Positions 21,201 through 39,925 of a stretch of 56,026 nucleotides of DNA are shown here, piece by piece; the stretch's first letter is position 1, and every line of letters begins with the position of its first letter. Origin of the DNA: Cyanobacteriota bacterium (GTDB lineage: Bacteria > Acidobacteriota > Vicinamibacteria > Vicinamibacterales > UBA2999); contig JAIEMQ010000010.1 of NCBI GenBank assembly GCA_019752015.1, positions 1 through 56,026 on the forward strand, given 5' to 3'. The position numbers and the translations under genes were made by a program. The notes beneath the pieces were generated by a model that was given only the letters and a program-made list of their open reading frames with translations, ran no database searches and was not told where the DNA came from.

Positions 21201-22016
21201 CTAAGGGTTAATCGACCCGAACAGGACCAGCCGCGCCGCTTCGCGCAGGCCGCGCGCCGTGAACGGCTTCTCGAGGAACGCCGCGCCCTCTTCGAGCTCG
21301 ACGCGGTTCTCGAACAGCATGTCGCTGAAGCCGGTCTGATACAGGACCTTGACCGCGGGGAAACGCTGCCGCACGTGATCGGCCAGCTCGCGGCCCTGCA
21401 TGTCGGGCATCGCGTAGTCGGTGACCAGCAGATCGACGTCGCCGGAATACGCGGCCAGCTTCTCGATGATCTCCGGTCCGCCGCTCGCCATCAGCAGATC
21501 GAAATTCTCGCGCTGCAGGATGCGGGCAAGCACATCGAGCATCATCGGATCGTCGTCGACAACGCAGACCGTTTTCTTGATGTGGAGCGGCTTGAGCTCG
21601 GCCTGAGGCGGCTTCGGACGTGAGTCTTCCTTCGCCGGCGTCGTGGGATTCGACGTCAGCGGGATGTCGGGAATCTCCATCCGCGCGCGGGTGGCGGCTG
21701 GAGCGGCGTCCTTGTCCGTGAACGAGGCGACCTTCTGCTGCGGCGTTGATTCGACCGGGCGCGGCGGCGCCGGCGGCAGATCAACGTGCAACGCCTTGGG
21801 CATTTCGCCGTGGCCCACGGCGGCCCATAACTGGTTCAGCAACTGCTGAGGTAGTCCGATATCGACGCCCGCGACGAGCACGTCGGTGCATAGGGATTCA
21901 AGCTCGCGAATGCGAGCTCTGAGTTGATCCTCGTCCGGTTTTTCTGCCACTAATTTTCCGCTGGACCAGACGCGGTTTGCCATCCCATCCGATCCGCCAA
22001 AAAAGCTCACAGCCAT
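21201..22016 (-). CDS. Response regulator with C-terminal receiver domain
   Basis: Start uncertain: ATG 22016 (271 residues) is used; 22052 and 21983 are alternatives, and 21983 has the best purine tract. The N-terminal half is low-complexity and helical (DQLRARIRELESLCTDVL, then Pro-rich). The receiver domain is at the C-terminus (from about residue 150): acidic pocket CVVDDDPMML, phospho-acceptor Asp in LLVTDYAMPDM (near 199), Thr/Ser region YQTGFSD, Lys in FLEKPF. A receiver at the C-terminus with no output domain suggests a phospho-relay or protein-interaction role. No histidine kinase lies nearby. Confidence 0.85.
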   Translation of the reverse strand: MAVSFFGGSDGMANRVWSSGKLVAEKPDEDQLRARIRELESLCTDVLVAGVDIGLPQQLLNQLWAAVGHGEMPKALHVDLPPAPPRPVESTPQQKVASFTDKDAAPAATRARMEIPDIPLTSNPTTPAKEDSRPKPPQAELKPLHIKKTVCVVDDDPMMLDVLARILQRENFDLLMASGGPEIIEKLAAYSGDVDLLVTDYAMPDMQGRELADHVRQRFPAVKVLYQTGFSDMLFENRVELEEGAAFLEKPFTARGLREAARLVLFGSINP

Positions 22017-22086
22017 AATATCGCGCCTGTCCGTTTCGGGTCCGATGTACACACCACCGTCCGAGAGCCAAATGCCATCTGCGTAT

Positions 22087-22120
22087 ATAGACGGACAGAG
22101 ACGGCAAAACTCTCAGTTTC
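22087..22120 (+). repeat. Left arm of a 34-bp imperfect inverted repeat around the sigma gene
   Basis: It starts ATAGACGGACAGA and continues to AAAACTCTCA. Its reverse complement matches 22990-23023 at 28 of 34 positions by hand alignment. The two arms enclose about 0.94 kb containing the entire sigma gene. A third GGGACAGACCC word lies at 22144-22156. Confidence 0.75.
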
Positions 22121-22206
22121 GAGCGTTGCGTGCGAAATCGTAAAGGGACAGACCCTTGTGTTGGTGAGCATGCGTACCGATAATCGCTCCAGTTCCTCCC
22201 AATTGC

Positions 22207-23040
22207 GTGAATTATCAGAAGCTGCTGATCGACAACCTGGCTCTTATCGATCAGCTGGCACGAATGACGGGCCGGCGGCAACACCTCTCCGTTGACGAGC
22301 AGCAGGATTTTTGCGGTTACGTAAGACTCAAGCTTATCGAGGACGACTACGCTGTCCTGCGCAAATTCAAGCATCGCAGTTCTCTCTGGACCTATCTGGC
22401 GATGGTGATCGAGCGGGCCGCCCTGGACTAGTGCGTGGAAAAGTGGGGGCGCTGGCGCCCCTCGGCCGCTGCGGAACGGATCGGGCCGGTGGCCGTGACC
22501 CTGGATCGGCTGCTTCACCGGGACGGCCACTCGATAAGCGAAGCGGTGAGTCTGGTGAGAGCGCAACATGGCAGCACACTCTCCGAACGCGAGCTCCGAG
22601 AGATTTGCGGGCAACTGCCCAAGCGGCAACAGCCTCGCGAAGTTCCGGAGCAGGCCGCTGATGACGTGACCAGCGAAGTGTCCTCTGAAAGCATCGTTGA
22701 GGATGAGGCGCGTCAAACGCGGGTTGAACAGCTTCAGCGCGCATTGCAGGCAGCTTTCGGGCAGCTTGCGCACAAAGATCGGGTCACGATTGCCTTTCGT
22801 TACGACCAGGATCTGCCGATCACGCAAATTGCCACAATGACCGGCCTCTCAGCGCCGACGCTTCATCGTCGGATTGACAGGAGCCTGACCCAGTTGCGGA
22901 CAGCCTTATTGGCGGCAGGCTTCAGTCCCCGGGAAATTCGTGACCTGATCGGTCATCCGGAAATAGCCCTCTCGTCGCTGTTGAAAAAGGAGATTGAGAG
23001 TTTTTCGGGGTCTGTCCGTCTATTCAAGCGAGATGGTTGA
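22207..23040 (+). pseudogene. RNA polymerase sigma factor interrupted by one in-frame TAG
   Basis: One frame from GTG 22207 to TGA 23040 reads as a 277-codon sigma factor, except for TAG at 22429-22431. Before it: KLIEDDYAVLRKFKHRSSLW, TYLAMVIERAALD (region 2). After it: CVEKWGRWRPSAAAERIGPV, RDGHSISEAV, then region 4 with TQIATMTGLSAPTLHRRIDR. In relatives I recall, the stop position is an aromatic residue (LDY or LDW before xxxWGKWRPSA), so one substitution explains it. GTG 22435, two codons later, could restart translation, giving pieces of 74 and 201 residues. Codon use is undamaged on both sides. It overlaps the anti-sigma/CHAT gene by 8 nt. The options are pseudogene, readthrough, split sigma or base error. 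The C-terminal 13 residues come from the right inverted-repeat arm. Confidence 0.8.
22990..23023 (-). repeat. Right arm of the imperfect inverted repeat
   Basis: It contains GAGAGTTTTTCGGGGTCTGT and lies inside the sigma gene's 3' end. On the minus strand it reads ATAGACGGACAGACCCCG, matching the left arm at 22087. GGGTCTGTCC words of this kind are common in dispersed bacterial repeats. Confidence 0.75.
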
Positions 23041-26000
23041 TCCACACACCCACGGTTGCCCGGAACCGGAGGCCCTGGCGGCATACGTCGACCGGGGATT
23101 GAGTCTGTCTGAACGCGCACGCGTGGACGCTCATCTCGCCTCGTGCCCACAGTGCATTGCGCTGGTGGCTGGGGTCGCTCGAACGGTCGAGGAACTGTCG
23201 GCGCTCAGGCCTGAGGTTGCGCGTACTGCGGAGGCCACTCCGCTCGTCACGCGCCGCTCCGTGGCCGGTGCGCTGGCGGCCGCGGCCGCCGTGATCGCGG
23301 TCCTGGCCACGCCCGCCCTTGTGCGGCCATGGTTCGAGCGCGATTCGGGACTCGTGAGTCTTGTCGAAAGCGTCGGTGAACAACGATCGGTTCTCGGCCG
23401 GCTGACCGGGGGGTTCCCGCATGCCCCACTGGGTGCGCCATCTGCTGGGGGGCAAGATGGCCGTGCCGCCGGGACCGATCGTGTTCAGTTGACCGCCGGC
23501 AGGATTCGCGAGTCGTTCGGCGAACGCGAAACGCCGTCACAGCTTCACGTGCGCGGCGTCTCGCAACTTTTGGCGGGGCGCTATGACGATGCGGTGCAGT
23601 CGCTGCTGGCGGCATCGCGCGAGCAGCCCGCGAACGCCCGTTACCTGAGCGATGTGGCCGCCGTGCAGCTCGAGCGCGCGCGCCTTGGCCTGCGCCCCGA
23701 CGATCTGCCGCGCGCGCTGGCCGCCGCGGATCGTGCCCGCCGTCTGGATCCGTCGCTCAACGAAGCGTGGTTCAACCGCGCCCTTGCCGCGAGCGCGTTA
23801 TCGCTCACCGCGGAAGCGAAGAACGCCTGGACGGAATATCTCAAGCGCGACAGCACGTCGCCGTGGGCTGCCGAAGCACGCAACCGGCTAGACGAGTTGG
23901 CTCGGCCAACGCGCGCCGATGCCTGGGTTGCGATGGAGGGCCGGCTGCAGTCGGCCTTTGACGCGTCTACGGCGGATGAGGCGGTGCGCGCGCAAACGAC
24001 GGAAGCGCGCAACTTCATCGAGAACACACTGATTGTGAATTGGGCCAACGCGGTGATCGCCGGTGGCAGCGGTGAGGCCGAGCTCGATCGCGTGCGCACG
24101 ATGGCGGCGGCGATGCAACGCGTCGCCGGTGATGCCGTCTACGCGGACGCGGTTGCTGCGATTGACCGCGCTGACGCAAGTGGACGCCGGTCGCTCGCGG
24201 GCGCGCATCGCGATTATGCCATTGCGGCCGCACAGTTCAATCAGGACGCGTATGTCGCCGCGCTCCGTGGCTTCGCCGCGGTTGGCCCAAGACTTGGCCA
24301 CAGTTCGTTTGCGACGCTCGCGGCTCTGCACCAGGGCGCCATCACCTACATCACTGGAAGGGCGGCGGAGGCAGAACCATCATTGGTGGCGACTCGTGAC
24401 ACGGCGAGCGCGAAGGGCTACACGTACGTGAGCGGCCGGGCCAGTTGGTTCCTCGGGCTAATCGCCATTGGACGGAGCAACTTTGGCGGCGGTCAGGCCA
24501 ATTACGAGGATGCGCTCGATACGTTCGGGCGCATGGGTGATGTCGAGCAAGCTGGGTCAATCCACAACCTGCTCGCGGCGCTTTACGACTATCTCGGAGA
24601 CACTAGTAACGCCTGGCAGCATCGTACCGCCGCGCTTGGATCGATGACCGGTTCGCGATCAGCGCGGTTCAAGTATCAGATCCTCGCGACTGCGGTGCCG
24701 TCAATTCGAGCTGAGAGCCCTGAAACGGCGCTGTCGATGGCCGAAACCGCGGTCGCCGTGGCGCTCGAGGGTGGGCGGGAACCGCAGATCGCCGACGCGA
24801 TGGTGCAACGAGCGTCCCTGCTCGTTGCGTTGAATCGCGCTGCCGAAGCCGAACAGAGCGCTCGCGAGGCGCGCGAACATCTGGCCAGAGTGCCAGACGG
24901 TGCGCTCAGGAAACGCCTCGAGGTTCTTACTTTGTTGATGGAAAGCGACCTCAAGCGACGAACCGATCCGGCTGACGCGGTGACTTCCGCGTCTCGAGCG
25001 ATCGAATTCCTTGAGCAACGGCGTGAGCGGCTCTGGATCGCGCAGCTGCAGCTGCGCCTCGCGCAGGCAAACATGGCGTGGGGTCGCGTCGCAGAGGCGC
25101 GGGTGGCGCTCGACCGCGGGCTGGCCGCGTTCAACGAGGAGCGCGCCGCCAGCACCGAGTTGAGACCGATCTCAGCGCTCGACGAATCCTGGCAATTGTT
25201 CGATGCGTCGATTCAGTTGTCGTTGAAGGAAAACAACTACGAGCGGGCTTTCCGTCTAGCCGAAGCGTCTCGCTCAAGGTCGGCCAGCGAATCAAAGAAA
25301 TTCGGCGCGACGCCGCTGCGCGAGGTGCAGGCCTCGCTGCAAGCCGACGAAGCGATCGTCGCGCTGAACCAGTTCGACGACGAGCTGGCCGTGTGGGTCA
25401 TCAAGTCACAGGGTGTCAACGTAACGATGCGCCCGCTGTCGCGGGTCGCTGCAAAGCAGCTCATCTCACGGCAGCAACACGAGATCTGGCGCGGCGCACT
25501 AACCACGGCCGGCCGCGACCTCTATAACGAGATCATTCGCCCGATCGCAGCGCAACTGACCAGAACCTCGCGTCTGATCTTCGTTCCTGACAACACCTTC
25601 CAGTCCGCCGCGTTCGCGGCGCTCTACAACCCGACGAACCAGCATTTCCTCCTCGAGGACTTGTCGGTGCGAATGGCGCCGAGCGCCGCGGCCTTTGCCG
25701 CCTCTGTAACGGCCACGGCGCGAGTCGGCGACGCGGAGCCGCTGATTTTCAACGGTGCAGCGCCGGACGCTACACGCGAGCGATTCTTTGCAGACGCGGC
25801 CAATCGCGGGATCGTGCACATCTCCGCGCGAATTGCCGCCAACGCTAACTATCCGTTGCTGTCACGAATCGTCGTGGCCGATGAGCCGGGCGTCCGGCAC
25901 TCGGGCGTGATTCTCGGCAGCGACATCGCACAGCGCACATTGCCTCAGACCGGGCTGGTCGTCATTGACGAGGCCAGCGCCGCGTCGTCCCCCCATCGAG

Positions 26001-26242
26001 GCGAGGGCACGTCGATCCTTGCCCGCGCGTTCCTGATCGCCGGCGTGCCGGCGGTGGTCGGAACGTTGCCCGGCGCCGACGAGAACGCCACTCGAGATCT
26101 GATGATCGCCTTCCACCGCGAGATGTCGAAAGGCATGTCCGCTGAGCAGGCCCTCCGCACAGTCCAACGCAACGCAATACAGCAGAACGGCCGTCGACTC
26201 GGCGCTTGGACTGCGTTGGTGTTATACGGCTCCGATCGATAG
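23033..26242 (+). CDS. Zinc-finger anti-sigma / TPR / degenerate CHAT fusion protein
   Basis: The protein has 1069 residues from ATG 23033, 8 nt inside the sigma gene. Order: anti-sigma zinc finger (CPEPEALAAYVDRG, then HLASCPQC) in the first 45 residues; a membrane helix near 80-105 (VAGALAAAAAVIAVLATPALV); long TPR-type helical repeats to about residue 780; a C-terminal CHAT-like domain. CHAT landmarks are clear (IVHISARIAANANYPLLSRI, GEGTSILARAFLIAGVPAVV, GTLPGADENATRDLMIAFHR, AEQALRTVQ). However, the catalytic His of HxxxH is Arg (near 933), and the Cys of LSACET is Ala (LVVIDEASA, near 980). It is probably a signalling anti-sigma with a non-proteolytic CHAT fold facing the periplasm. A C-terminal Tat protein follows after 22 nt. 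Confidence 0.85.
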   Translation: MVDPHTHGCPEPEALAAYVDRGLSLSERARVDAHLASCPQCIALVAGVARTVEELSALRPEVARTAEATPLVTRRSVAGALAAAAAVIAVLATPALVRPWFERDSGLVSLVESVGEQRSVLGRLTGGFPHAPLGAPSAGGQDGRAAGTDRVQLTAGRIRESFGERETPSQLHVRGVSQLLAGRYDDAVQSLLAASREQPANARYLSDVAAVQLERARLGLRPDDLPRALAAADRARRLDPSLNEAWFNRALAASALSLTAEAKNAWTEYLKRDSTSPWAAEARNRLDELARPTRADAWVAMEGRLQSAFDASTADEAVRAQTTEARNFIENTLIVNWANAVIAGGSGEAELDRVRTMAAAMQRVAGDAVYADAVAAIDRADASGRRSLAGAHRDYAIAAAQFNQDAYVAALRGFAAVGPRLGHSSFATLAALHQGAITYITGRAAEAEPSLVATRDTASAKGYTYVSGRASWFLGLIAIGRSNFGGGQANYEDALDTFGRMGDVEQAGSIHNLLAALYDYLGDTSNAWQHRTAALGSMTGSRSARFKYQILATAVPSIRAESPETALSMAETAVAVALEGGREPQIADAMVQRASLLVALNRAAEAEQSAREAREHLARVPDGALRKRLEVLTLLMESDLKRRTDPADAVTSASRAIEFLEQRRERLWIAQLQLRLAQANMAWGRVAEARVALDRGLAAFNEERAASTELRPISALDESWQLFDASIQLSLKENNYERAFRLAEASRSRSASESKKFGATPLREVQASLQADEAIVALNQFDDELAVWVIKSQGVNVTMRPLSRVAAKQLISRQQHEIWRGALTTAGRDLYNEIIRPIAAQLTRTSRLIFVPDNTFQSAAFAALYNPTNQHFLLEDLSVRMAPSAAAFAASVTATARVGDAEPLIFNGAAPDATRERFFADAANRGIVHISARIAANANYPLLSRIVVADEPGVRHSGVILGSDIAQRTLPQTGLVVIDEASAASSPHRGEGTSILARAFLIAGVPAVVGTLPGADENATRDLMIAFHREMSKGMSAEQALRTVQRNAIQQNGRRLGAWTALVLYGSDR

Positions 26243-26264
26243 CCCCCCAAAGTAGGAGCAAACA

Positions 26265-27200
26265 ATGAATCGTCGAGCTTTTGTCAGTCGAGTCACACTC
26301 GGCGGCGTCGCCGCCGCTTGTACAGGTTTCCGGAAGCCCGTCCAGGCCGCTGGCGCTAATCAGGTCAACGTCCGCTTCGTCGGCATGATGAGCTTCGTTG
26401 AGCGCGCGGATCGCTCGTTCCTCGTCGCAACACCGGGGAATGAGGGCATGCACCACATGACCCACACGCCGTTCCTCATGGCGCGCAAGGGTTCCGCGAT
26501 CGCGGCGGCGTTCGACATGACGCCAGCGCCGGGCGTTGTGCCCGAAGCGTTCGACACTGCGCTGATTAGATCGAACCCCTCGCAGTTCGTGTATCGCAAC
26601 CTCGAAAACACCGCACTCGATATCGTGTCGGGCGCGATCGACAAAGTCGACAATCGTGCCGACGAGCTCGGGCTGATGAACCGTATTGCGCCGAACAAGC
26701 GCGTGCGCGGCAATCTCGAAAAGTGGGCGTCGTCCACCGTCTCGATCCGTGGCGGCAAGATCGAGAACTCGGCGGCCCACCCGGACGCCCACAAGGTGTG
26801 GACGTTCGGCAGCTACAGCCAGCGGTTGACCGACGCGGTCAACTTCAGCAACGTGGGCGCCGTGTCGACCAGCATCCGTCTGACCAGCGCCGCCGACGCG
26901 CGCACGTTCACCGCGCCGGCGGGAGAAGCAGTGGACTTATGGGTGATCAGCGCGGCGCAGCCCGGTGAGGACATGGGCGAGCCGACCACTGTTGAGCACT
27001 CGCGCGTCATGTTCGACTACCTCGTCGATGCCACGCCGGTGATCGCGACGTGTGCGGAGGCCACCGGTCGGCTAGTTCCGCCAACCGAACTCCCTTTCGT
27101 AAAGCCCACGAGCGCGAGCAACGGACTCGTCGCCAGCGCAGCGGTCGTCCCACCCTGGAATGACATCTGCTGGATGGGTGCCATTTTGCTCGGCAAGTAG
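26265..27200 (+). CDS. Tat-exported protein of unknown family, partner of the sigma/CHAT genes
   Basis: The protein has 311 residues. The N-terminus MNRRAFVSRVTLGGVAAACTG has a twin-Arg pair followed by a hydrophobic stretch, so export by Tat as a folded protein is likely; AAACTG could also be a lipobox-like site. The mature part (VNVRFVGMMSFVERADRSFL, HHMTHTPFLMARKGS, DLWVISAAQPGEDMGEPTTV) matches no family I know; it looks alpha/beta with several His. It starts 22 nt after the CHAT-fusion stop with a good site (AGTAGGAGC), so it belongs to the same operon. It may be the product or ligand sensed or made by this system; that is inference from position only. Confidence 0.65.
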   Translation: MNRRAFVSRVTLGGVAAACTGFRKPVQAAGANQVNVRFVGMMSFVERADRSFLVATPGNEGMHHMTHTPFLMARKGSAIAAAFDMTPAPGVVPEAFDTALIRSNPSQFVYRNLENTALDIVSGAIDKVDNRADELGLMNRIAPNKRVRGNLEKWASSTVSIRGGKIENSAAHPDAHKVWTFGSYSQRLTDAVNFSNVGAVSTSIRLTSAADARTFTAPAGEAVDLWVISAAQPGEDMGEPTTVEHSRVMFDYLVDATPVIATCAEATGRLVPPTELPFVKPTSASNGLVASAAVVPPWNDICWMGAILLGK

Positions 27201-27220: not shown

Positions 27221-27249
27221 GAAGGCCGGGCTACCTGGGCCCGGCCTTC
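27221..27249. terminator. Bidirectional terminator hairpin between convergent genes
   Basis: An 11-bp perfect stem, GAAGGCCGGGC (27221-27231) with GCCCGGCCTTC (27239-27249), loop of 7 nt. It overlaps the stop codon of the minus-strand sortilin-like gene. There is no strong T-run, so efficiency is uncertain. Confidence 0.7.
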
Positions 27250-30200
27250 ACCTTCTCCCACTCGGCCAGTAGCGGCTCGATCGCGGCCGCCGTTTTCTTC
27301 CACTCCTCCATCACGATCGGCATCGGCGCCGCGTCAGCGGACTCGACGGCACCGAACAACTGCCCGAGCGGCGCGCTCGCTCGCGACAGACGCTGATCGA
27401 GATCGCTGATCGCCGCCGTCTTCGCGGCCGCGCGCATGTCCCGCAATGCCGCCGACGTGCGCCGCAGCATCGCGTCGATCGCGCGTGAGGTGTCGTATTG
27501 CAGCTTGAGGTCCGCGGCGGTGGCTTTGACGCGCGGATCCATCTTGACGATGAACGGCTGCGTCTGTGACTTGCCGTCGACGGTGAGTCTCACCGAATAC
27601 TTGCCCGGCGCCGCCCACGATCCGAACGGCGTGCGCGGTGTATTCGCATAAGTCGCCGAGATCGGATAATTGAAGCCGCCGACCGCCGGCCGCTCGTGAT
27701 GCATGTCCCATACGAAGCGATGCAGTCCCGCGCTGGCCAGCAGCGGACGATGCGGACGGATCCAATAGTCCGGCGTGTTGCGGCCCTCGACCAGCGGCTC
27801 AACTGGATCGGTGTTCGTGTACTTCCGCACGACGCCGCCTTGTGAATCAAGAATCTCGATCGACACGCTCTGCGCCGCCGACTTGAGCAGGTAATGAACA
27901 ATGGCGCCGTCGGGAGGATTCTGGCCCGCGGGCTCGTCGGGCGGCAGCGGCGTGTCGGTGTTCTTGTTCCAGCGGAAACGGATCGCCTCCTGCGGCGCGA
28001 ACAGGTGCACATCGGCGGCGGCAATCGTCGCGGTGACCTGCCGCAACGGCGTGATGTCGTCGAGGATGAAGAACGATCGCCCGTGCGTGCCGATCACCAC
28101 GTCGTCGTCCTTGATCACCAGATCGCGGATCGACGTCGCCGGCAGGTTGTGCCGCAGCGACTGCCAGTGCTCGCCATCGTCGAACGACACGTAGACGGTC
28201 TGCTCCGTTCCAGCAAAGAGCAGGCCGCGGCGCTTCGGATCCTCACGCACCACGTTGACGATGCCGCCATCGGGGATGCCGTTGGCAATGTGCGTCCAGC
28301 TCTTGCCGCCATCGCGTGTGCGATAGATGTGCGGACGCAAATCGTCAAGGCGGAACGTGTTGATCGCGGCGTAGGCCGTATTCGCGTCGAAATGCGACGC
28401 GTCCATGATCGACACCTTGGCCCACGGCGTCAGCGCCGGCGGCGTCACGTCGTTCCACGTCTTGCCGCCATCACGCGTGACGTGGATTAACCCGTCATCG
28501 GTGCCGGCCCAGATGGTGCGTTCATCGAGATACGAGGGCGCGATCGTGTAGATCACTCCACGCTGTGTCGGTTGCGCTTCCGGCAGCGTCGAATAGATGC
28601 CGACGTTCTTCGGAATCTCCCACGTCCTGCGCGTCAGGTCGGGGCTGATCTGATCCCACGACTTTCCGCCATTGACCGTCTGCCAGAGCACGTTCGATGA
28701 GAAGAACAGCTTGCGCGGATTGACCGGCGAGAACAGCACCGGCATCGTCCGCACGACCCGATAGTCGGCAGGACGTCCGAATCGCGGCCCGACTTGCTGC
28801 ACCTGTTTGGTTCGACGATCCCATCGCGATACCTTGCCGCCGTAGACGATGTCCGGATCGAGCGGATCGGGCGCGACGTATCCGTACTCCTCGACGCCGA
28901 CCGTTGACCACTCGCGGAACGTGATCTGCCCTTCGTCGCCGCGGCTCTGGATGCAGACGGAGCCGCTTTCCTGTTGCCCGCTGCACACGCGATAAGGGAA
29001 CGAGTTGTCGGTCGTGACGTGATAGAACGCGGCGGTGGCCTGGTTGTACCAGCTGCTCCACGACGCGCCGCCGTTGAGCGTAATCACCGCGCCTTGATCC
29101 GACGTCATGGCGATGATGTCGGGATTATCCGGATTGAACCACGCACGCTGGTAATCGTCGCCGCCCGGCGCACCGCGAATCGCGGTGAACGTGCGGCCGC
29201 CGTCGGTGGACTTCCACGTCACGATCGTCGGCACGATCACAATGTCGGGATTGGCCGGGTGAACGCGAACGTCGGTCGCATCGCTGGGGCGCGCGAGCAC
29301 GCGCGGATCGCTGTTGACGCGCGTCCAGGTCTCGCCGGCATCATCCGATCGGAAGACTCCCGAGTTGCGCGCTTCCACGATCGCGAACAACCGCGACGGA
29401 CGGCTCGGCGCGATGCCGATGCCGATCCGGCCGAGTCGATCATTCTCGAAATTCGGGAACCCGTTGGTCAGCTGGCGCCAGGTCGTGCCGCCGTCGGTGG
29501 ACTTGAACAGGCCGCTGCCCGGGCCGTTGAAGGCGCCGTTCTCCCACGGCCCCTGCCGCGCTTGCCACAGCGCCGCATACACGATGTTTGAATTCGACGG
29601 ATCGATGAGCACGTCGGTGCCGCCGGTGTTCTCGTCCTTGTACAGCACGCGCTCGAACGTGGCGCCGCCGTTCGTCGATCGAAAGATGCCGCGCTCGGTA
29701 TTCGGACCGTACGGATGCCCGATCGCGGCCACGAACACGCGATTGGCGTCTTTCGGATCGACGACGACCTGGCCGATCTGCTGGGCGTCGCGAAGGCCGA
29801 GATGCGTCCAGGTCTTTCCCGCATCGGTGGACTTGTAAATGCCGTCGCCGGTCCCGAGATCCGGCCGCTGCGCGGCTTCGCCACTTCCGACATAGATCAC
29901 ATTTGGATCGGACGGCGCGACCGCGAGGGCGCCGACTGATCCAGTCGGCTGCTCGTCGAAGATCGGCAGCCAGGTGCGGCCGGCATCCGTCGTCTTCCAC
30001 ACACCACCGTTGACCACGCCGATATAAAAAGTGTGCGGCTGGCTGGGCACGCCGTCGAGCGCCCTCGTCCGGCTGGCGCGATGCGGGCCGATGTTGCGCC
30101 ATTGCATCTCGCGGAAATCCGGCAATGGTCCCTGGGCCAGCACGCCCGGCCACGTGAGCGAGGCCGCCGCAACGGCGACCGCGATGATGGTTTTTCGCAT
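27231..30200 (-). CDS. Exported sortilin/VPS10-like BNR-repeat protein
   Basis: The protein has 989 residues with a signal peptide (MRKTIIAVAVAAASLTWPGVLAQ). Residues 30-750 are a beta-propeller of Asp-box/BNR units: many copies of S-x-D-x-G-x-T-W (KTTDAGRTWLPIF, KSTDAGKTWTHLG, RSTNGGATFERV, KSTDGGTTWRQL, RSDDAGETWTRV, VTRDGGKTWNDV, RTRDGGKSWTHI). The last quarter (from about LLKSAAQSVSIEILD) is a beta-sandwich and helical tail that may be a sorting or ligand domain. Such giant proteins are frequent in Acidobacteria and are sometimes called glycosyl hydrolases, but no sialidase catalytic set is visible. Its start is only 24 nt from the divergent S9 peptidase start. Confidence 0.85.
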   Translation of the reverse strand: MRKTIIAVAVAAASLTWPGVLAQGPLPDFREMQWRNIGPHRASRTRALDGVPSQPHTFYIGVVNGGVWKTTDAGRTWLPIFDEQPTGSVGALAVAPSDPNVIYVGSGEAAQRPDLGTGDGIYKSTDAGKTWTHLGLRDAQQIGQVVVDPKDANRVFVAAIGHPYGPNTERGIFRSTNGGATFERVLYKDENTGGTDVLIDPSNSNIVYAALWQARQGPWENGAFNGPGSGLFKSTDGGTTWRQLTNGFPNFENDRLGRIGIGIAPSRPSRLFAIVEARNSGVFRSDDAGETWTRVNSDPRVLARPSDATDVRVHPANPDIVIVPTIVTWKSTDGGRTFTAIRGAPGGDDYQRAWFNPDNPDIIAMTSDQGAVITLNGGASWSSWYNQATAAFYHVTTDNSFPYRVCSGQQESGSVCIQSRGDEGQITFREWSTVGVEEYGYVAPDPLDPDIVYGGKVSRWDRRTKQVQQVGPRFGRPADYRVVRTMPVLFSPVNPRKLFFSSNVLWQTVNGGKSWDQISPDLTRRTWEIPKNVGIYSTLPEAQPTQRGVIYTIAPSYLDERTIWAGTDDGLIHVTRDGGKTWNDVTPPALTPWAKVSIMDASHFDANTAYAAINTFRLDDLRPHIYRTRDGGKSWTHIANGIPDGGIVNVVREDPKRRGLLFAGTEQTVYVSFDDGEHWQSLRHNLPATSIRDLVIKDDDVVIGTHGRSFFILDDITPLRQVTATIAAADVHLFAPQEAIRFRWNKNTDTPLPPDEPAGQNPPDGAIVHYLLKSAAQSVSIEILDSQGGVVRKYTNTDPVEPLVEGRNTPDYWIRPHRPLLASAGLHRFVWDMHHERPAVGGFNYPISATYANTPRTPFGSWAAPGKYSVRLTVDGKSQTQPFIVKMDPRVKATAADLKLQYDTSRAIDAMLRRTSAALRDMRAAAKTAAISDLDQRLSRASAPLGQLFGAVESADAAPMPIVMEEWKKTAAAIEPLLAEWEKVKAGPR

Positions 30201-39838: not shown

Positions 39839-39925
39839 GCGGGAGTGGCGGAATTGGCAGACGCGCTAGCCTCAGGAGCTAGTCCGGGCAACCGGGTGGA
39901 GGTTCGAGTCCTCTCTTCCGCACCA
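39839..39925 (+). tRNA. tRNA-Leu (anticodon CAG)
   Basis: The 87-nt class II tRNA folds fully: acceptor GCGGGAG with CTTCCGC, D-arm GGCGGAATTGGCAGACGC, anticodon arm CTAGC-loop-GCTAG with CAG at 39873-39875, a long variable arm (GTCCGGGCAACCGGGT) and T-arm GAGG TTCGAGT CCTC. CCA is encoded (39923-39925). It decodes CUG. Its 3' 22 nt recur at the end of each of the two 105-bp units just downstream, marking it as a likely integration target. Confidence 0.97.

Follow-up and report, generated by a model that had tools for sequence, protein, structure and literature searches.

Which regulatory system is encoded by a locus that joins an interrupted sigma factor gene, a presumed membrane protein ending in a protease-like CHAT domain, and a putatively exported protein of an undescribed family? 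We addressed this question for a three-gene module in a 56,026-nucleotide stretch of DNA from a soil-type bacterium, hereafter the window (positions 1 to 56,026 of GenBank contig JAIEMQ010000010.1, assembly GCA_019752015.1). The window is contig 37 of its source genome, the 5.9-Mb assembly G000; below, G numbers denote genomes, C numbers contigs, and L numbers fetched loci. The module probably represents a system of the DdvS/DdvA kind, in which an extracytoplasmic function (ECF) sigma factor is paired with a transmembrane anti-sigma factor, here with a pseudoprotease sensor, accompanied by a third, exported protein and by a predicted regulon with the promoter motif TGAGA-N17-CGTCTA.

The coordinates of all features are collected in Table 1. 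The 1069-amino-acid (aa) protein gene begins within the end of the sigma gene, with an 8-nt overlap, and 22 nt separate its stop codon from the third gene. Both distances and the open frames agree with a preliminary description of the locus. That description set the start of the module at 22087; the module is real, but no gene begins there, and a promoter-like element is found instead at 22088-22115. The description had also called the sigma factor broken. The sigma frame comprises 277 codons, from GTG to TGA, with one interruption, an in-frame TAG closely followed by a GTG, and four relatives (G001, G002, G005, and G008) have the gene without an internal stop, so this claim was borne out; the interruption in G000 is probably a recent event. 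The sigma sequence matched Pfam Sigma70_r4_2 at 1.1e-5, just below the cut-off, and HTH_23 above its own cut-off, and a profile of the sigma family had ECF chains among its PDB matches. Pfam region 2 gave no match in the window sigma fragment or in the intact sequence of L029. One other sigma factor of this family was found in G000, on C25, with 33% identity.

Next, the 1069-aa protein was analyzed. Pfam matched zf-HC2 (2e-8) and CHAT (3.9e-29, 102 bits against a cut-off of 24) and, weakly, TPR. Together with hydropathy and an AlphaFold model (mean pLDDT of 75 and pTM of 0.62, with low values in the linker and parts of CHAT), these matches place a zinc finger, a probable membrane helix, TPRs, and a C-terminal CHAT domain in one protein. 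The best Foldseek matches of the model were 8rw5 and 8rot, both titled transmembrane anti-sigma factor DdvA (E values of 9.8e-17 and 7.1e-16), with modest TM-scores of 0.41-0.50 in an alignment over 971 columns; separase came after them and Csx29 lower down. VIA-align placed other TPR proteins first and 8rw5 at rank 29 (Z of 19.3 over 740 residues). By sequence, a profile of seven CHAT proteins matched 10 PDB sequences, among which 8rot/8rw5 was the sole CHAT protein (E of 1.6e-10). It aligned DdvA at both ends, at profile positions 13-303 (zinc finger/TPR) and 976-1079 (CHAT). With a CHAT-only profile, DdvA was the best PDB match (E of 1.6e-15) and separase and Csx29 chains were far behind, and the window TPR-CHAT part alone had no PDB match by sequence. 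The topology proposed in the preliminary description, a membrane anti-sigma factor reading a periplasmic signal with a CHAT fold, therefore has a precedent, since the best Foldseek match is a transmembrane anti-sigma factor, and homology to DdvA supports it. Neither of the two outcomes that the description had named as refuting it was observed: relatives share the gene order, and CHAT is matched at the C-terminus. The TPR-CHAT part would accordingly be periplasmic.

DdvA of Myxococcus xanthus, which partners an ECF sigma factor (PMC4374960), has a zinc finger, a membrane helix, a TPR-like part, and CHAT in the same order as the window protein. It differs in keeping the CHAT His and Cys (ATHG and LAACEG), whereas the window protein has HISAR and VVIDEAS at these positions; DdvA is not known to require the two residues for its function. 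Among 18 aligned CHAT proteins, 12 kept both residues; they were substituted in the window protein and in five others (L026, L029, L030, L031, and L034), which form one clade with a support of 100/98. Dyad loss thus maps to a single change on the CHAT tree; the sister of this clade, L032, is fused with the dyad intact. The label pseudo-CHAT given earlier is right for the clade of the window. The domain can hardly act as a protease, and we therefore presume a receptor role. Alignments further showed that the window CHAT core is short by about 20 residues relative to its relatives. The architecture switches between fused and split four times on this tree, on which L167, L168, and L176 have long branches and an uncertain placement; L027, L028, L033, and L078, with a cut or damaged CHAT, were left out of the alignments and the tree.

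The third protein had no Pfam or NCBIfam match at an E value of 1, in agreement with the earlier statement that it belongs to no known family. The accompanying claim of export by the twin-arginine translocation (Tat) pathway is plausible because Arg3 and Arg4 are invariant in 10/10 aligned homologues. When the window protein was used alone as a query against 60 relatives and its own genome, nine other loci were found, and in all nine the gene lies directly downstream of a TPR-CHAT gene (a remnant in G006, and cut by the contig end in G001 and G031). Five further third genes (C1, G059, G119, G120, and G122) were reached through their CHAT neighbors, and their position next to CHAT genes therefore cannot count as independent evidence. 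A nine-row profile gave 15 matches in 13 of the 161 genomes of the order, nine being its own rows and six known already, and no copy away from a CHAT gene. A sigma gene stands upstream in 10 of the 15 loci, one of them being the broken window copy. In an eleventh, on C1, a 220-aa protein with a Sigma70_r2 match is upstream, and G006 has a sigma remnant; of the remaining loci, C79 has only the last 46 sigma bases, and those on C103 of G001 and in G031 are cut. In named records, related third genes came from Acidobacteria or Vicinamibacterales metagenome genomes.

More distant third-place proteins were compared with the window family. Homology probabilities were 94.6% for L173, 93.7% for L036, 89.8% for L169, and 74% for L172, against at most 8.0% in a control with 20 shuffles each; they were 20.6% for L166, 8.2% for L165, 4.5% for L167, and 1.4% for L168, and the proteins of L165, L167, and L168 were left out of family counts. 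The third-family profile comparison of A1 with A5 gave 75.7% (P of 2.4e-5). A model of the third protein reached a pLDDT of 67 from 10 rows. No fold was named for it: the best PDB Foldseek match had an E value of 0.026, VIA-align gave no match with a Z of at least 2, and no PDB sequence matched at an E value of 1.

Relatives with CHAT proteins of 34-58% identity retain the order sigma, CHAT, third gene, which is therefore not due to chance. Within the genus set of nine genomes (G000-G008), G002, G005, and G008 have the divergent response-regulator gene, sigma, CHAT, and third genes in intact order, and a response-regulator homologue also adjoins the module in G006. In G001, an intact sigma gene and the CHAT start lie on the L078 contig, and the CHAT end and third gene lie on another. 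In G006 (L027, C101, 5595-8076), a deletion runs from mid-sigma into mid-CHAT and frameshifts are present, while the third gene is open. Three genomes of this set, G003, G004, and G007, gave no third-gene match. G013 and G036, of the same family, carry divergent sigma, CHAT, third-gene modules. G000 itself has a second CHAT and third-gene copy (L026, C79, 1067-5293), which begins at the promoter and lacks a sigma gene; its 46 remaining sigma bases contain the motif. On this 8.8-kb contig, the divergent neighbor looks ParB-like by eye, and the copy is possibly mobile or plasmid-borne. G000 also has another module of sigma factor, zinc-finger-TPR-CHAT protein, and twin-arginine third protein (L036, C1, 73000-86000), with the CHAT His and Cys intact.

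A profile built on the N-terminal 300 residues of the 1069-aa protein led to more modules in the order; many weaker matches are probably plain zf-HC2 anti-sigma factors. A CHAT gene was present in nine of the 15 regions fetched (L165-L170, L172, L173, and L176) and absent from L171, L174, L175, L177, L178, and L179. Split modules, with a sigma factor, a zf-HC2/TPR protein, and a TPR-CHAT protein, were seen at L165, L169, L170, L172, L173, and L035, and fused ones at L166, L168, and L036. A working zinc finger in L166 and L168 is doubtful because H-x3-C-x2-C is missing. At L167, a CHAT gene accompanies one for a TPR protein, with neither sigma factor nor zinc finger seen, and no third gene was recognized at L170, L176, and L035. 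In a phylum search of 396 genomes, five had matches, all within the order, with low sensitivity, as six candidates per genome were scored. The plasmids searched gave no match to the window protein. We recognized no literature describing this module in Acidobacteriota, the coverage of subscription papers being poor.

We then turned to the motif TGAGA-N17-CGTCTA, which is found on the minus strand before the response-regulator gene and on the plus strand in the sigma 3' end, before the CHAT gene. At the former site the half-sites are invariant in 6/6 loci, and in G001 they stand 18 rather than 17 bases apart; at the latter, TGAGA and CCGTCTA are invariant in 6/6 loci, the sigma-less C79 copy included. 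The sigma gene's own promoter, TTGTGT-N17-GATAAT, is conserved, both hexamers being invariant in 6/6 aligned loci. A mobile-element reading of the 34-nt inverted repeat around the sigma gene was rejected: the arms of the repeat coincide with the two promoter-like elements, of which one lies within conserved codons of sigma, and it is no repeat family because the spacers differ between sites.

The motif was searched for in 18 genomes, six bearing the module and twelve others. The six contained 29 exact sites (11 in G000, 5 in G001, 2 in G002, 4 in G005, 3 in G006, and 4 in G008), and the twelve others four in all, with one each in G013 and G036. A reversed-pattern control gave none in the six module genomes and four in all 18. 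Eleven of the 29 sites are at module loci and 18 outside (G000, 8; G001, 4; G002, 0; G005, 2; G006, 2; G008, 2). None of these 18 overlaps a gene called by a codon-usage gene finder, whereas only 15.3% of random positions are likewise free of overlap (p of 2e-15). At eight of them, a gene on the same strand also starts within 150 nt, compared with 3.6% of random positions (p of 8e-8). Thirty downstream genes were listed, 18 of them scanned with Pfam. Two-component genes follow exact sites at L070, L082, L079, and L076, and a histidine-kinase gene with 64.5% identity between G000 and G008 forms an orthologous target pair. Other sites precede genes for a beta-helix protein (L068), an RHS-repeat protein (L073), a lipase-like protein (L084), and exported-looking proteins (L083, L085, L077, and, by eye, L072). 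A narrower pattern that allowed one mismatch added 24 sites across the six genomes, of which some precede genes for a large secreted protein (L105), a histidine kinase (L110), alpha/beta-hydrolase proteins (L113 and L121), and a PilZ protein (L120). At L072 (C31 end) and L106 (C25:21281), the motif precedes leaders that resemble each other and proteins that begin identically, with MPVRVLISLVVFV, as in a duplicated candidate regulon gene. At L107 (C35:56381) and L123 (G005, C19:234024), a one-mismatch motif in the 3' end of a kinase-like gene precedes a conserved 111-140-aa protein; coding conservation could be the source of the motif there.

These observations, namely the gene order, the domains, the loss of the CHAT dyad, and the conservation and placement of the motif, led us to the following scheme. 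A housekeeping-type promoter would produce the sigma factor, which the zinc finger of the 1069-aa protein would tether to the inner membrane. On the periplasmic side, the TPR-CHAT part, presumably the receptor, would sense an envelope signal, with the third protein as a likely partner. Once freed, the sigma factor would turn on TGAGA-N17-CGTCTA promoters, a tie suggested by co-occurrence and position. Its targets would be the divergent response-regulator gene, the anti-sigma/third-gene operon, which would provide feedback, and genes scattered elsewhere, a number of which encode two-component regulators and secreted proteins. The sigma factor would thus autoregulate its anti-sigma factor and the third gene and also control dispersed signaling and surface genes.

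Several points weigh against this scheme. For ten of the 18 sites outside the module, the automatic rule found no gene start on the same strand within 150 nt, and no clear target was seen at L071, L074, L075, L080, L081, and L069 (sucC-like only at 343 nt). A single orthologous target pair was found among the exact sites. G002, with an intact sigma gene, has no exact site outside the module, and the genome with the broken sigma gene has more sites (11) than any other, as would be expected if the break were recent or a sequencing error, if the stop were read through, or if a different sigma factor read the sites. The one-mismatch background is large: since nine of the 24 sites fall within called genes and the reversed pattern gave nine over the whole search, that class is mixed. 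Finally, the third proteins of G119, G120, and G122 as called lack a twin-arginine start, at odds with the role of a simple periplasmic partner.

The amber codon and the roughly 20 missing CHAT-core residues could also mark a decaying relic, with a sigma pseudogene, a partly deleted CHAT core, and promoters and a third protein left over or used by other regulators. G006 shows such wreckage, as sigma has lost its second half and CHAT its first, with the third gene still open. In relative-rate tests, the window CHAT evolved faster than L029 with three outgroups (p of 0.019, 1.7e-4, and 7e-4), as did the window sigma compared with L029 and L078 with outgroup L030 (p of 0.038 and 0.026). However, the test is unspecific, as L030 and L026 also exceed L029 (p of 0.010 and 0.044); the window did not differ significantly from L026 (p of 0.16), nor did the sigma comparisons with outgroup L032 reach significance (p of 0.54 and 0.19), and third-gene rates were null in four of five comparisons (the positive one with a p of 0.0076). 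Moreover, the lesion in the sigma frame is single, the CHAT gene is open across 1069 codons, and the 11 exact motif sites persist. We therefore regard decay as unlikely. The same amber codon would also allow a naturally split, two-subunit sigma factor, in which it closes a fragment with region 2 and translation resumes at GTG 22435 to give the linker and region 4. The stop falls between two conserved halves with a start codon one codon on, the frame is otherwise uninterrupted on both sides, and the motif sites persist; but the split occurs in one genome only, the four intact relatives have none, and Pfam region 2 was unassignable in the one intact relative scanned (L029), so that we hold it very improbable. 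A Craspase-like switch, in which a CHAT protease would cut the anti-sigma factor or the third protein and free the sigma factor as in type III-E CRISPR, is in keeping with the 12 of 18 intact dyads, the six modules with zf-HC2/TPR and TPR-CHAT proteins as separate neighbors, and the Csx29 fold match with the published cleavage of Csx30 (PMC10028731), but since both catalytic positions are substituted in the window, it could apply at most to the ancestor and sister modules and has very little to recommend it here.

The reading as a DdvA-like system was further compared with known systems. Anti-sigma factors of the RseA/RsiW type are membrane proteins that release an ECF sigma factor through cascades of proteases; the window protein shares the membrane anti-sigma design but differs in its predicted periplasmic part, TPR-CHAT, and no releasing protease was identified here. 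DdvS reportedly drives a type III-B CRISPR-Cas system, and we know of no third gene with ddvSA. In contrast to that CRISPR link, none of the 11 exact and 6 one-mismatch motif sites of G000 is on C12, the contig of the sole Cas1 gene found in this genome. A Cas1 match was present in two of the nine genus genomes (G000, on C12, and a partial one in G002) and absent from four of the six module genomes, and a CRISPR link was rejected. At Rfam gathering scores, a tRNA was the sole match in the window, and no search aimed at gRAMP/Cas7-11 or CRISPR arrays was made. Type III-E CASP loci are described as combining TPR-CHAT, an anti-sigma factor, and an ECF-like sigma factor, with predicted sigma motifs, and Csx29 as cleaving the sigma inhibitor Csx30 (PMC10028731). 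The likeness to Csx29, Csx30, and CASP-sigma lies in this combination; type III-E CASP differs in being RNA-guided and in having a separate anti-sigma factor, Csx30, and an active protease. DdvA is a nearer precedent than the type III-E loci named in the preliminary description. For the ECF54 group, CHAT, subtilase, and carboxypeptidase domains are mentioned in the genetic context of the sigma factor, and the group is cited as a case without an anti-sigma factor (PMC8999054). An ECF sigma factor beside CHAT is common to both; unlike in ECF54, the window CHAT protein itself bears the zinc finger.

Table 1. Positions in the window of the module and its flanking elements
Feature	Position	Strand	Evidence or remark
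Divergent response-regulator gene, predicted sigma target	21201..22052	-	Pfam Response_reg, 1.3e-17
Promoter-like TGAGA-N17-CGTCTA facing the response-regulator gene	22088..22115	-	Exact match; half-sites invariant in 6/6 loci
Housekeeping-like promoter TTGTGT-N17-GATAAT of the sigma gene	22156..22184	+	Both hexamers invariant, 6/6
ECF-type sigma factor gene, interrupted	22207..23040	+	53-56% identity to intact relatives; region 4 match
In-frame amber stop (TAG)	22429..22431	+	Near the end of presumed region 2; GTG at 22435
Promoter-like TGAGA-N17-CGTCTA in the sigma 3' end, before the CHAT and third genes	22995..23022	+	Exact match
DdvA-like transmembrane anti-sigma factor gene, 1069 aa	23033..26242	+	Pfam; PDB sequence and fold matches
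zf-HC2 zinc finger, HLASCPQC (H-x3-C-x2-C)	23069..23155	+	Pfam, 2e-8
Hydrophobic segment after Arg-Arg, probable membrane helix	23267..23323	+	Hydropathy of 2.21 over 19 residues
TPR-type helical solenoid	23528..25252	+	Helical hairpins in the model, pLDDT mostly >80
CHAT domain	25253..26239	+	Best Pfam CHAT stretch, aa 911-1067
Substituted CHAT His position, HISAR	25817-25831	+	Alignments
Substituted CHAT Cys position, VVIDEAS	25958-25978	+	Alignments
Third gene, twin-arginine beta-rich protein, undescribed family	26265..27200	+	Conserved after TPR-CHAT genes

Elsewhere in the window, a gene on the minus strand at 27231-30200, convergent with the module, encodes a 989-aa protein with repeated STDGGKTW-like motifs, sortilin/VPS10-like by eye. 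The sole tRNA found in the window is a tRNA-Leu (cag) at 39839-39925 on the plus strand.

The architecture is of a known kind, that of a DdvA-like anti-sigma factor; what is new is the dead dyad, the undescribed conserved partner, and the predicted regulon. We tentatively raise the possibility, still doubtful, of a class of pseudoprotease receptor anti-sigma factors, in which a TPR-CHAT protease became fused to a formerly separate zinc-finger anti-sigma factor, lost catalysis once, and may now read the exported beta-rich third protein as a ligand or co-sensor, feeding the TGAGA-N17-CGTCTA regulon. The external signal that inactivates DdvA was described as unknown in 2015 (PMC4374960). The present locus bears on how DdvA-type anti-sigma factors sense signals, as this lineage lost CHAT catalysis and kept the anti-sigma frame. 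With a conserved candidate partner, sister modules in which the dyad is intact, and a readable promoter and its candidate targets, whether CHAT cuts or only binds becomes testable.

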